NCBI GenBank assembly: GCA_024653215.1
Contig: JANLFU010000003.1
Coordinates: 186,001 to 250,000, forward strand
DNA from: Candidatus Saccharicenans sp.
Lineage (GTDB): Bacteria; Acidobacteriota; Aminicenantia; Aminicenantales; Saccharicenantaceae
DNA: 64,000 nucleotides
Direction: 5' to 3'
Shown piece after piece: positions 55,121 to 60,432 of this stretch. How positions within the stretch are numbered: position 1 is the first letter of the stretch; each line of letters starts with the position of its first letter. The notes under the pieces are model-generated. The model ran no database searches, had not been told where the DNA came from, and worked only from the letters and a program-made list of their open reading frames with translations. Both the position numbers and the translations under genes were made by a program.

Positions 55121-55196
55121 GGGCGGTTAGCTCAGCTGGGAGAGCGCGGCGTTCGCAACGCTGAGGTCGGGGGTTCGAGTCCCCTACCGTCCACCA
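55121..55196 (+). tRNA. tRNA-Ala (anticodon CGC)
   Basis: A 76-base tRNA. Acceptor GGGCGGT (55121-55127) pairs with ACCGTCC, including the G3-U70 pair that marks alanine tRNAs. The anticodon stem CGGCG/CGCTG holds loop TTCGCAA, anticodon CGC, reading GCG. Encoded CCA at 55194-55196. The 259-base gap upstream holds nothing else that I can support. Confidence 0.95.
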
Positions 55197-55229
55197 TTTA
55201 TGTTTGCTCTGTTTTAAGAGAGGAAATTG

Positions 55230-55952
55230 ATGCAGAACATCTGGCTCTTGGCCGGGACGGCCGCCACCCTGGGCTTTGTGCATACCCTGATTGGTCCGGA
55301 CCATTACCTGCCCTTTATTGTTATCAGCCGGGCCAGGAAATGGAAGTTCGGGAAGACGCTGTGGGTTTCATTCCTGTGCGGGCTGGGGCATGTTCTGAGC
55401 TCGGTCGTTCTGGGCTTTCTGGGAATTGCCCTGGGAATGACTGTCGGTCACCTGGAAAAGGTGGAATCAACCCGGGGCAATATCGCTTCCTGGCTGCTTA
55501 TCGGTTTCGGGCTAGCTTACCTGGTCTGGGGCTTGAGGAAAGCTTACCGTTCCCGGTCCCATGAGCATGTCCATTACCATCCGGACGGAGAAGTCCATGT
55601 CCATACCCATACCCATGAAGATGGCCACCTTCACCTGCACGAAGAGGGCGAGCCGGCCGGCAGCAGGAAGAACATCACTCCTTGGGTGCTTTTCCTGATC
55701 TTTGTCTTTGGCCCCTGCGAGCCGCTGATTCCCCTGGTGATGTATCCGGCAGCTCAGCATTCCACCAGCGGGGTTATCCTGGTGACCGCGGCCTTCGGAC
55801 TGACCACCATCCTGACCATGCTGACCATCATTGCCCTGTCGGCCTGGGGCTTGAGCTTTGTGCGTCTCGGTGTTCTGGAGCGCTACTCTCACGCCCTGGC
55901 CGGCGGCCTGATTCTCATCTCCGGCCTGGCCGTTCAGTTCCTCGGCCTTTAA
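55230..55952 (+). CDS. UreH/NicO-like nickel/cobalt-type membrane transporter with His-rich loop
   Basis: A 240-residue protein with about six hydrophobic segments in two halves. TM1 carries GFVHTLIGPDHYLPFIVISR (HxxxGPDH, like the HX4DH motif of NiCoT/UreH-type metal transporters). The central loop (about 110-142) holds 11 histidines (HEHVHYHPDGEVHVHTHTHE and the next few residues), a likely metal buffer. The second half has VFGPCEPLIPLVMYPAAQHS, again typical. Probably exports or imports Ni2+ or Co2+ at the cytoplasmic membrane. ATG at 55230 (GAGAGGAAA upstream), 33 bases after tRNA-Ala; a TTG one codon earlier is less likely. Confidence 0.8.
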   Translation: MQNIWLLAGTAATLGFVHTLIGPDHYLPFIVISRARKWKFGKTLWVSFLCGLGHVLSSVVLGFLGIALGMTVGHLEKVESTRGNIASWLLIGFGLAYLVWGLRKAYRSRSHEHVHYHPDGEVHVHTHTHEDGHLHLHEEGEPAGSRKNITPWVLFLIFVFGPCEPLIPLVMYPAAQHSTSGVILVTAAFGLTTILTMLTIIALSAWGLSFVRLGVLERYSHALAGGLILISGLAVQFLGL

Positions 55953-56973: not shown

Positions 56974-58035
56974 TTAGAGCGGACGGCTAATATTGCTGCG
57001 GTTAATGATGATATCTTTAATGGCCTTGACGGAACGGTCGGAGAAAAAATCCATGGCCATAAAGACGGCAAACCGGCCGCCATCTTGGTTCGTCTTATCA
57101 TAGAGAAGGGCTTCAAGGAAATCGTTTCTGTTAAACAGTTCGGATACGGAATAAACCGCCCGGTAACCGTCTGCCCCGACGATAATTATGTATCCTGCTC
57201 TTAGGTATTCCTGGTCCGGCTGGAAATACTTGCCAACAGTTTGTCTCAACGAGACGCCCGAAAAAAATTTAAGGCCATGAAAACCGCGGCCTCGGCCAAA
57301 AAAGACCGTCGGCAAAACAAGCACAGGCAGATTTCCGGGCAGAGATCCAATCTTGGCTAATTCCTGCTCGGCCCTGATCAACTTGATATTTTCTGAGTAC
57401 AGGCGGGATTTTCCCTTCAAGACGGGTTTGGATAGTGGGCAGGAATGAACGATAATCCGGACCGGACTCTGGATGTTCCTTTCCGCATAGAGGTCGTTGG
57501 CGGCCACCACTTTGCTTTCCTCAGGCAGGGGCCAGGTTTCCCCGGTGGCTGAAGGAATGATGGGTGCAACCCGGGCCGCAATAATAATCCGGTGCAAGTT
57601 AATGGGATAAAAAACTTCGCCCCAGCTAAAGATTACTTTTTCGCCTGCTTTGTTTTCAATTATTATTAACAAGTCGATGGGAGAAGAAAACTCCTTTTCA
57701 TTCTGTTTTTGAATAATCTGATCCTTAAGGATGTCGAATAGAGAATATCCCTGATAGACATAGGCCCCAATAAAAATAGTCTTATTTTTGTCTAACTTGG
57801 CCTCGCGCACCTGGACCTGGTGAAGAGGCATCTGGCTTAAATCGGCCAGTCCCGGTTTGGATACTTCTCCGGTTATTTCGATTTGGTTAATGGGTAGGGC
57901 TTTGAAAGGAACGTTGTCGTAAAAATCATTGTTTTCCGGCACCGGGGCTTTTTGAGCTAATAAACCGGGAGCCTGCAATAAGACTGAAAGGATAACTGTA
58001 AACCAGATTGGTCTTAAACCTGAATTGTGTTTCAT
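56974..58035 (-). CDS. Exported tandem sulfite-oxidase (molybdopterin)-fold-like protein
   Basis: A 353-residue protein with a signal peptide (FTVILSVLLQAPGLLAQ). The mature protein looks like two copies of the oxidoreductase molybdopterin-binding (SUOX) fold. First, INQIEITGEVSKPGLADLSQ with MPLHQVQV, YQGYSLFDILKDQI and the later FSWGEVFYPINL. Second, FFSGVSLRQTVGKYFQ, GADGYRAVYSVSEL and an ending with RSVKAIKDIII. The Cys that binds molybdenum in sulfite oxidases is not at its usual place; one Cys occurs in VHSCPLSKP. So a binding rather than redox role is likely. It lies 34 bases after the TonB receptor gene on the same strand. ATG at 58035 follows AGGGAGA. Assignment by pattern only. Confidence 0.6.
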   Translation of the reverse strand: MKHNSGLRPIWFTVILSVLLQAPGLLAQKAPVPENNDFYDNVPFKALPINQIEITGEVSKPGLADLSQMPLHQVQVREAKLDKNKTIFIGAYVYQGYSLFDILKDQIIQKQNEKEFSSPIDLLIIIENKAGEKVIFSWGEVFYPINLHRIIIAARVAPIIPSATGETWPLPEESKVVAANDLYAERNIQSPVRIIVHSCPLSKPVLKGKSRLYSENIKLIRAEQELAKIGSLPGNLPVLVLPTVFFGRGRGFHGLKFFSGVSLRQTVGKYFQPDQEYLRAGYIIIVGADGYRAVYSVSELFNRNDFLEALLYDKTNQDGGRFAVFMAMDFFSDRSVKAIKDIIINRSNISRPL

Positions 58036-58069
58036 ATCATTTCTCCCTAATTGGCGAGTCATTTGTTAT

Positions 58070-60022
58070 TCAGAGTCCAGTATGAAAACCAAAGCCTATT
58101 TCAATCCTCCGGGAGGAAACAGGATATCCGGGTTCGGTGAAATAAGCTCTGTTGAAAAGATTTTCCACCTTTAAGAATATTGAGCCGGACCTGAAGAATT
58201 TTTCAAAAGATAGATTGGCAGTTACATAAGCCGGAACATTGACCATTTCATTGCTTATGACAATCTCAGCCTTGGAAGCGCCGATCAGCCATACAGCCAG
58301 AGCAATGTTTTCTGCCCTGAAGTAGTTCAGAAGCAAGCTAACCTGGGAAGTGGGGATCAGATCCAGCTTTCTATTTTCGGTCAGATTCCTGGCTTTAAGA
58401 TAAGTATATTGAAGCTGAATATTAAAATCGCCGATTGATTTATCGGTCTCAAGCTCCAGACCCCGAATCCTGGCCTTGCCCACATTAACATATAGTCTGG
58501 TGCCGTCAGGCTGGCGGATAACGCTGATAAAATCGCGGTAATTTGAGGTGAATAAGGCCAGGCAGGAGTCAACCCAACCATGATAGGCGGTTCCAAACTC
58601 AAAGGTACGGCCAACTTCATCTTTAAGGTCAGGGTTGCCGCTAGTTGAACTATAAAGGGAACGCATCGACGGAAAGCGCGATTTTTGGGCATAGGAAAGA
58701 TGAAACTCAATAGGGGGCTGTGGCCTGAATTTTAAGCCAATTATCGGGTTCAGAGAGGTTCGATGGCCTCCCGCCTGTTTTTGCAGGTAATCAAGGCTTA
58801 GACCCCCGAGGAGATGCCATCTGGGCGTCAATTTCCATTCGTCTTCCAGGCCGAACGAATAAGTATTGTGTTTATAGTATTCCCAGGGTGAAGTCTCAGA
58901 GGCCTGTTGCTTGACCTTATCCAAACGACCGTTGAGGCTGAATCGCAGCTCATGATTTGTCCTGGGATTAACGGTTGCAAGGAAAAAGGCACCAGCTGAG
59001 TAGTTCTTATATATTGATTCCCAGTTTAGTATGCTGTAGGTAGCGTCTGTGTAGGCATCGAGGACATTGTAGTAGTTGATATAATATGTTCTGATTTTAA
59101 GAGTTCCGGACTTAAATAGAGGGAAGGTGCCGCCCAGGCCAAGAATGAATCTCTGCCAATCCTTAAATCTCCAATATCGGGGTGAATAATAGGCAGTGGC
59201 CACCGGCACACCATAAGCGGAATCGTAAAAAGAAGTCTGTAAGAGGATTTCGCTCCTTTGCCCGGGGAAAAAGTAAACCTTTCCACTGAAATAATTGTTC
59301 CGGTAATCAGTATTTGGAAAGAGCTGAGTTGCTCCAGAATCTTTGAATTTATAGCCCTCTGTTTCCTCGTGGGAGGTAGCCAGCTTGAGGCTGAAGTGCT
59401 GACTCACGTAGGTTCCGCTTCCTGAAAAGCTGAAGCTTGAGGTTGGGCCCAGTCTGGTACGCAGCTCCAGGCTGTTTTCCTGCGGCCTTCGGGTCAGAAC
59501 CTCCACGATTCCCCCCATGGTGTTGGCCCCGTATAAGACCGAGGAAGGGCCTTTGGTTACCTGGGCATATTCAACCTCGAGGCTGGGGATGGTTCTTAAA
59601 TTGTACAGATTAAAATAAGGTTCATAAATGGGAATTCCATCCAGCAACAGGGTAGATTTGTCATTGTCCAGGCCCCTGATTTTTACATGCGCTTCGGCTT
59701 TGGAACCGGTGGTAACATAGGTTCCAGGGGCGAAAGAAAGCACCTCGGCAATATTCTTTGATTTAAAAAGCTCAAGAACATCAGGACGAATGACGAAAAC
59801 CGAAGCCAAAGGTTTTTGTTCAGGGGAAGGAGCGGTTACCAGGATTCCTTCGGTTCTGACCCTGGCCGGCTTTTCTTCCTCTTTTGTCTGTCCCTTTTTC
59901 TGACTGGTAGATTGTTCCTGGCCGCCTTCAGTCGTGGCTGGCAAAAAAGAAACTGAAAAAAAGAAAAATAAGAAAAGAAAAACAAGAGAGATTAAAAAAT
60001 GGGATCTGGATTGGTAGGGCAT
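58070..60022 (-). CDS. TonB-dependent outer-membrane receptor (BtuB/siderophore-type)
   Basis: A 650-residue TonB-dependent receptor without the carboxypeptidase-like domain. Signal peptide about 8-30 (FLISLVFLFLFFFFSVSFLP), a charged linker, then the plug (about 60-175): SVFVIRPDVLELFKSKNIAE, VLSFAPGTYVTTGSKAEAHV, KIRGLDNDKSTLLLDGIPIY and VLYGANTMGGIVEVLTRRPQ. The barrel ends with RRIEIGFGFHTGL. The substrate might be a metal chelate or cofactor. ATG at 60022 follows AAAGGAGA; an in-frame ATG at 60109 is rejected, as it would place the structured RNA inside the coding part. Its leader holds a strong candidate riboswitch. Confidence 0.87.
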   Translation of the reverse strand: MPYQSRSHFLISLVFLFLFFFFSVSFLPATTEGGQEQSTSQKKGQTKEEEKPARVRTEGILVTAPSPEQKPLASVFVIRPDVLELFKSKNIAEVLSFAPGTYVTTGSKAEAHVKIRGLDNDKSTLLLDGIPIYEPYFNLYNLRTIPSLEVEYAQVTKGPSSVLYGANTMGGIVEVLTRRPQENSLELRTRLGPTSSFSFSGSGTYVSQHFSLKLATSHEETEGYKFKDSGATQLFPNTDYRNNYFSGKVYFFPGQRSEILLQTSFYDSAYGVPVATAYYSPRYWRFKDWQRFILGLGGTFPLFKSGTLKIRTYYINYYNVLDAYTDATYSILNWESIYKNYSAGAFFLATVNPRTNHELRFSLNGRLDKVKQQASETSPWEYYKHNTYSFGLEDEWKLTPRWHLLGGLSLDYLQKQAGGHRTSLNPIIGLKFRPQPPIEFHLSYAQKSRFPSMRSLYSSTSGNPDLKDEVGRTFEFGTAYHGWVDSCLALFTSNYRDFISVIRQPDGTRLYVNVGKARIRGLELETDKSIGDFNIQLQYTYLKARNLTENRKLDLIPTSQVSLLLNYFRAENIALAVWLIGASKAEIVISNEMVNVPAYVTANLSFEKFFRSGSIFLKVENLFNRAYFTEPGYPVSSRRIEIGFGFHTGL

Positions 60023-60033
60023 AACACTTCTCC

Positions 60034-60130
60034 TTTCCAAAATGGGAGGCAAAGCCGTTTCCAGCTTTACCCTATCGGCCCAGTGGCTTGGCTGAAAAGC
60101 TGTAGCCATCAGGACTCGGAGTCATGGAAA
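60034..60130 (-). promoter_or_regulatory. Structured leader RNA of the TonB receptor, Moco/Tuco riboswitch-like
   Basis: Read on the minus strand. The outer stem pairs TTTCCA (complement of 60125-60130) with TGGAAA (complement of 60034-60039), and the latter overlaps the Shine-Dalgarno AAAGGAG. Inside are hairpin TGGCT/AGCCA (60104-60108 with 60089-60093) and a 10-bp hairpin closed by a GAAA tetraloop (60062-60071 with 60048-60057), followed by GCCTCCC. The stretches CTCCGAG, GCCACTGGGCCGATAGG, CTGGAAACGG and GCCTCCC match what I remember of the Moco RNA motif (Rfam RF01055). The pairing is seen in the sequence; family and ligand are inferred and no model was run. Cobalamin riboswitch is a weaker alternative. 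A closed stem would block translation. Confidence 0.6.
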
Positions 60131-60432
60131 TTATATTTTCTTTTCACCAAGAGTCAATAAAAAAAATTTAGCAGCCTTGATTACTGTGATGGCTTCTCAC
60201 TTGCATGGGGCCTGGTGGACCTAATTTCAGTATCGTAACAATCCGGAGGAACTTATTAATTGGTCAACCATTCTGGCAGGAAAAAGGCATGCCGATAAGA
60301 GGTAATCGGACCTGGCCTGATAATAGCCCATATATATTCAAACCGATCAAAGCACCGTTTGTTCATAAGAGGCCGGGTCTGAACTTAAACTCGGGAAATT
60401 GACCCTCGGAGTCCCACTGCCGATGAGGTCAA

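Follow-up and report, generated by a model that had tools for sequence, protein, structure and literature searches.

A P3-less Moco-family riboswitch in front of a TonB-dependent receptor gene in Candidatus Saccharicenans, and a possible outer-membrane step in tungsten and molybdenum cofactor supply

The founding description of the Moco riboswitch gives transport, synthesis and enzyme genes as its targets and makes no mention of TonB or the outer membrane (PMC2408646). What, then, would such an RNA do in front of the gene of an outer-membrane receptor? The locus considered here lies in a 64-kb stretch of DNA from Candidatus Saccharicenans sp. (order Aminicenantales, uncultured anaerobic bacteria), referred to as the window, in which a leader RNA, a receptor gene and a second gene behind it all lie on the minus strand. 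A first-pass annotation of these letters had described a Moco/Tuco-like RNA before a TonB receptor, had suggested outer-membrane uptake under pterin-cofactor control, and had named a search with three Rfam models and covariation among orthologous leaders as ways to check the idea.

In an all-Rfam scan, the leader matches RF01055 (Molybdenum/Tungsten riboswitch aptamer) at twice the gathering score, over the full model (1-135) and with an E-value of 1.9e-15 for the 64-kb window (Table 1). Two tRNAs are the only other Rfam matches in the window, and RF00174 and RF01051, the other two models named, score nowhere in it. The sequence blocks quoted at first pass, CTCCGAG and GCCTCCC among them, were all found in the leader, and the fold sketched around them needs some redrawing. 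The outer stem does overlap the Shine-Dalgarno sequence, as proposed, but the consensus P1 has 4 bp (CUCC/GGAG) and not 6; the second hairpin does carry a GAAA cap, on a stem P4 that is one pair longer than the 10 bp described; and the supposed inner 5-bp hairpin is in fact the long interrupted stem P2. The label itself stands and can be sharpened, as the RF01055 alignment shows no P3 stem and places the leader with the P3-less, Tuco-type variant. The GAAA (GNRA) tetraloop on P4 is present in the window and in every aligned relative, and at the position of the tetraloop receptor in P2 the whole-model alignment shows CUACAG in the window against a consensus of CUAag. With its P1, P2, P4 and P5, its tetraloop, a Shine-Dalgarno sequence in P1 as in E. 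coli moaA, and a genome that carries tungsten enzymes, the leader resembles the P3-less subset of the founding paper (PMC2408646) and differs from it in controlling an outer-membrane receptor.

Table 1. Features of the leader and of the two genes behind it (window coordinates).
Feature	Coordinates	Strand	Evidence
Moco-family (RF01055) aptamer, P3-less (Tuco-type)	60014..60133	minus	score 72.1 bits (gathering score 36); 37 orthologous leaders covary
P1, 5' strand CUCC	60118..60121	minus	RF01055 alignment
P1, 3' strand GGAG	60033-60030	minus	RF01055 alignment; 4-bp P1 with CUCC 60121-60118
P2, internal and apical hairpin	60078..60115	minus	RF01055 alignment; two-sided changes at 7/9 outer pairs
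P4, 11 pairs, GAAA tetraloop	60047..60072	minus	RF01055 alignment; two-sided changes at 6/11 pairs, other 5 invariant
P5, 2 bp	60037..60046	minus	RF01055 alignment
Sigma70-like promoter: -35 TTGACT (60157-60152), 16 nt, -10 TATAAT (60135-60130)	60130..60157	minus	11/12 consensus matches
Shine-Dalgarno AAGGAG	60030..60035	minus	sequence; GGAG is the P1 3' strand; overlap shared by orthologous leaders
TonB-dependent receptor, 650 aa, ATG 60022-60020	58070..60022	minus	Pfam Plug 3e-19, TonB_dep_Rec_b-barrel 1e-35; 30-member family alignment
362-aa secreted protein, tandem sulfite-oxidase/PruR-like fold	56974..58062	minus	AlphaFold2 pTM 0.74

Covariation was measured in 37 receptor leaders at the 22 pairs of P2 and P4, of which 92% are standard pairs across the set. 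Cells changed on both sides number 121, against 38.8 +/- 4.9 in shuffles, and the covariation score is 0.425, against 0.166 in shuffles and at most 0.173 in slides; none of 500 shuffles reaches it. Fourteen pairs with two-sided changes were found independently by RNAalifold. P1 is invariant and therefore uninformative for this purpose. Since the folding energy of the leader is unremarkable (z of -1.55) and its minimum-energy fold differs from that of the aptamer, the case for a riboswitch rests on the covariance-model score together with the covariation, and not on the fold energy. Covariance model, covariation and geometry establish the family to which the leader belongs, and we are nearly certain that it is a riboswitch of the Moco class; both checks named at first pass thus came out in favour of the proposal.

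We then ask how such an element would act on the gene that follows. The sigma70-like promoter places the predicted transcription start near 60122, at the 5' edge of the aptamer; its -10 element ends 8 nt before P1, and the corresponding distance is 8-9 nt in 25 of the 40 orthologous leaders. From this placement, the transcript probably begins at the aptamer, and a start that would remove the 5' half of the aptamer, a possibility raised at first pass, is not indicated with so strong a promoter just upstream. The AAGGAG lies 7 nt before the receptor ATG, and orthologous receptor leaders likewise hold their Shine-Dalgarno sequence inside P1. This is the pairing geometry of the OFF element upstream of E. 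coli moa, which also has its Shine-Dalgarno sequence in P1 (PMC2408646). Because P1 pairs the GGAG and the start is predicted at the aptamer edge, ligand-dependent translational OFF control is the best reading and, judged from sequence, a likely one. Transcription attenuation, or an ON switch, would be the alternative. The second RF01055 RNA of the same genome (59.3 bits, before tupABC-moeA-moaA) has a terminator hairpin with a T run behind it, and a receptor-linked RNA from Desulfuromonadales has a terminator as well; at the window leader, however, no terminator is predicted, and the Shine-Dalgarno sequence is itself a strand of P1 both there and in the orthologous leaders, which makes this alternative quite improbable. 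Whatever its direction, control of the TonB-dependent receptor by the riboswitch can be asserted with high confidence. Single-sequence folding was also considered as proof of a switch and set aside as uninformative: no clean ON state is visible, and across 38 leaders folded without ligand the Shine-Dalgarno sequence is mostly engaged in other pairings (a median of 0.14 unpaired).

The linkage of RNA and receptor recurs within the order. RF01055 matches occur in 60 of the 94 Aminicenantales genomes searched (G000-G093), and of the 83 RNAs compared (82 fetched loci and the window) 40 precede the same receptor family, whose members are 35-84% identical to the window receptor; locus L062, where the frame is broken, was counted as receptor-type by hand. 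Most of the other RNAs precede TupABC-type or TupC-like/FecCD-type transporter operons with moeA and moaA, or moeA-moaA. The gene of the 362-aa protein follows the receptor in Ca. Saccharicenans and also in G034. A universal linkage can be rejected: a renewed search of 18 receptor loci without RF01055 found the RNA in none; contig edges truncate a few of these loci. No RF01055 match was seen in the fetched surroundings of receptors from a sister clade (43-46% identical), nor around a few others. Mapped onto a tree of 57 receptors, the presence of the RNA requires 8 changes against 16.6 when labels are shuffled; it is thus clustered on the tree, with losses or gains. Two receptor frames contain a stop (L037 and L062; TAG in G061, TAA in G068), which are errors or pseudogenes.

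Outside the order, a receptor profile search finds distant relatives that are 26-31% identical, and RF01055 lies upstream of the receptor homologue in 4 of the 18 loci examined there. In a deltaproteobacterial locus (L176), the RNA is followed by a terminator-like hairpin and, about 350 nt further on, by the receptor. The Desulfuromonadales locus (L183) has the RNA, a terminator, the receptor, two cytochrome-c-assembly-like genes and a SUOX-type protein that carries a fused tetrapyrrole-methylase domain; the same Desulfuromonadales genome has four such RNAs, two of them before AOR-like genes (AOR read by eye), one before moeA and one before this receptor. In Ignavibacteriae (L173) and Bacteroidetes (L169), the RNA and the receptor are separated by genes of two small membrane proteins, one with a weak Trep_Strep match and one with a weak ECF-T CbiQ match, and the run stands behind molybdenum-enzyme genes. 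This succession of Moco RNA, ECF S/T-like pair and receptor (L173:2741-5848 and L169:2723-5848) could, by its gene content, be a complete route across two membranes.

One objection to all of this would be that the leader resembles a riboswitch by chance, or that it has decayed and does nothing for the receptor. Decay does occur: some receptors have lost the RNA, and in G066, where the receptor is duplicated, one leader (L109:6501-6622, minus) is damaged in its 5' strand, with CCCCCGTTTT in place of CTCCGAG, and is possibly a riboswitch losing function. Against the E-value, the covariation and a linkage repeated across genera and phyla, we regard this objection as negligible for the window leader.

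Further arrangements were seen in these loci. Apparently secreted tetrapyrrole-methylase-like proteins occur in Mo/W-regulated gene runs, free in L077:913-1842 (minus) and fused to SUOX-type domains in L183:7589-9394; the periplasm would be an unusual place for a SAM-type methylase fold. Three deltaproteobacterial receptor homologues (L170, L188, L189) have no Moco RNA and lie near genes for binding proteins of the Peripla_BP_2 type.

Which cofactor would the leader sense? P3-less RNAs have been proposed to bind Tuco, on a correlation with tungsten genes only (PMC2408646). Within the order, P3 is missing in 38 of the 40 receptor leaders, and tungsten enzymes of the AOR family occur in 88 of the 94 genomes; the window genome has four AOR genes besides the tupABC-moeA-moaA operon. 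The receptor gene adjoins a MobB gene in L036 and an AOR gene in L033, and AOR lies within 10 kb of it in 10 genomes, several of which belong to one genus. From these patterns, Tuco is probably the ligand rather than Moco. The RNA could instead sense Moco or an MPT intermediate, with the P3 rule a mere correlation, and two observations lean that way: once P3 was deleted, the E. coli RNA no longer exerted control, with no change in specificity (PMC2408646), and a P3-like stem is present in two of the receptor leaders, which we count against the best explanation. However, six genomes have both types of RNA and divide them, with the P3-containing RNA before a Peripla_BP_2/FecCD/ABC operon and the P3-less RNA before the receptor; AOR enzymes and tup genes predominate in the order; and all four receptor-linked RNAs of other phyla also lack P3. 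We consider sensing of Moco unlikely.

The gene directly behind the leader encodes, as annotated at first pass, a TonB-dependent receptor with plug and beta-barrel domains, and the genome contains a TonB system (five TonB_C and seven Plug matches). In a profile search, the best solved relatives of the receptor are BtuB structures (E of 1e-36), and its score for the BtuB equivalog TIGR01779 is below the cutoff (119.9 against 599.7 bits). The 362-aa protein has a signal-like N-terminus, and its homologues suggest a start at Met10 (58035). It has no Pfam or NCBIfam match and does not reach the cutoff of Oxidored_molyb (PF00174). An AlphaFold2 model built from an alignment of 11 sequences has a mean pLDDT of 74 and the pTM given in Table 1, where a single-sequence model was poor (pLDDT 33). 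In plain Foldseek the leading matches were superantigen-like folds, which were set aside (E > 0.001); a second comparison gave the SUOX/PruR fold at Z of 11-12, with Z of 9-12 to members of the sulfite-oxidase family (SoxC, sulfite dehydrogenase, sulfite oxidase, YedY-type) and of 10-11 to structures of the pterin-binding protein PruR. A homologue in L183 (27% over 322 aa, pairwise E of 4e-20) scores 50 bits for an Oxidored_molyb domain, over the Pfam cutoff; this domain resembles the second half of the 362-aa protein. PruR proteins have no Mo-ligating Cys and bind pterins (PMC13259868). Likewise, the window protein appears to be secreted, is modelled with a SUOX-type fold and has no Mo-ligating Cys, no Cys being invariant among 11 homologues; unlike PruR, a single domain of about 170 aa that acts with DcpA, it would have two such parts and is encoded behind a receptor.

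Taken together, these elements suggest a simple circuit. The P3-less leader would sense the tungsten-pterin cofactor; when bound, P1 would close over the Shine-Dalgarno sequence and block translation of the receptor, and when the ligand is scarce P1 would open, allowing the receptor and the SUOX/PruR-like periplasmic protein downstream to be made. Powered by TonB, the receptor would then carry its substrate through the outer membrane, be it the cofactor (or a pterin precursor) or a W/Mo complex. We give a probability of about 0.8 to this explanation, a Tuco-sensing leader with OFF control over a receptor that serves the supply of W/Mo-pterin cofactor.

The nature of the imported substrate is the most delicate part. 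That it belongs to the tungsten/molybdenum cofactor economy seems very likely from gene context; that, within this economy, it is the cofactor or a pterin precursor stands at close to even odds. MoaC, MoaA (Mob_synth_C) and MoeA were each found in just 44 of the 94 genomes. There are 25 AOR-containing genomes at least 85% complete with no detectable moaA, moaC or moeA, three genes that sit together, such that one missing contig would remove them all; 20 of these genomes have the receptor, 14 an RNA-linked one, and in several of them the receptor is the sole gene with a detected Moco RNA. Lineages of this moa-less kind include those of L033, L041 and L073. By known biochemistry such genomes could not convert imported tungstate, and uptake of the metal alone would not serve them; since their receptor genes retain an RNA that senses the cofactor, import of that cofactor or of a precursor is plausible, which would also fit the pterin-binding-type fold of the partner. 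Among AOR genomes at least 85% complete, any receptor is associated with absence of the MPT pathway (20/25 vs 15/35, p 0.007), whereas the RNA-linked receptor is not (14/25 vs 14/35, p 0.30), both statistics ignoring kinship. The enrichment is weak, and the idea of cofactor import therefore rests on the existence of moa-less genomes and not on this test; 22 AOR genomes combine the receptor with moa/moe genes, which we count against it. MoaE (PF02391), the large MPT synthase subunit, was detected in none of the 94 genomes, even those with moaA, moaC and moeA, and in 11 of 14 control genomes; a replacement for it may exist, or the MPT pathway may be unusual here.

The main competing view is that the receptor imports metal only, as a complex of tungstate or molybdate with a chelator (a 'tungstophore'), cofactor sensing being end-product feedback as for tupABC. 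The sister RNA on tupABC fits this view, and TonB-dependent receptors classically carry metal chelates. It is also favoured by the six P3-containing RNAs mentioned above (L097, L099, L108, L110, L111, L083, in genomes G088, G046, G044, G083, G089, G082), which place operons of a Peripla_BP_2/FecCD importer type under a Moco RNA in related genomes outside the window; H. influenzae HI_1472, known as MolA and a binder of molybdate/tungstate, is a relative of their binding protein (E of 8e-12). However, all six of these genomes lack moaA, moaC and moeA, as do the 14 genomes at least 85% complete that keep both AOR and the RNA-linked receptor. Further points against it are the resemblance of the receptor to BtuB, the modelled pterin-binding-type fold of the partner, and the clustering of the receptor in two phyla with an ECF S/T-like pair, of a type that transports vitamins or metals. 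Metal-only import is possible at clearly less than even odds. The comparative data have strengthened the earlier suggestion of uptake under pterin-cofactor control. In its fullest form, which we advance tentatively and at somewhat below even odds, the receptor, the double SUOX/PruR-like protein and the FecCD- or ECF-type inner-membrane partners of the relatives would make up an import system for intact Mo/W-pterin cofactor (or molybdopterin), with feedback by the Moco-class riboswitch, in an order of which about half would run tungsten enzymes without making the pterin.

Cofactor-sensing RNAs before receptor genes have precedents in the cobalamin riboswitch-BtuB unit and in TPP riboswitch-TonB receptor units, for example in Caldithrix abyssi (PMC5317091), whose receptors take up the cofactor that is sensed. 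The Moco RNA of C. abyssi stands before a moa locus that includes a predicted molybdate transporter, and not before a receptor (PMC5317091), whereas in the window an RNA of the Moco class stands on the receptor itself. Acquisition of dietary Moco by C. elegans likewise draws the cofactor from outside, but in an animal and with no transporter named, and the 2022 paper states that exogenous Moco uptake was neither examined nor observed outside C. elegans (PMC9793310). Among open-access papers, we found no earlier report of a Moco-class riboswitch on a TonB receptor, of TonB-dependent uptake of tungsten, molybdenum (as molybdophore or tungstate) or their cofactor, or of a bacterial importer or uptake of Moco. 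The RNA class is thus known, and the novelty would be the type of target gene, with possibly a new transport function. An outer-membrane step is added to the Moco/Tuco riboswitch regulon and is kept across phyla. Genomes without moa genes that have tungsten enzymes, the switch and the receptor predict a trade of cofactor between microbes, which, if true, would change views of Moco/Tuco auxotrophy and of tungsten-using anaerobes and their ecology; bacterial Moco import can now be tested with a gene and an RNA that are both defined.

Elsewhere in the window, 55227-55952 encodes a membrane protein with DsbD_2 and weak NicO matches and a His-rich loop, adjoining a tRNA gene (55121-55193); from these matches, it is possibly a Ni/Co transporter.
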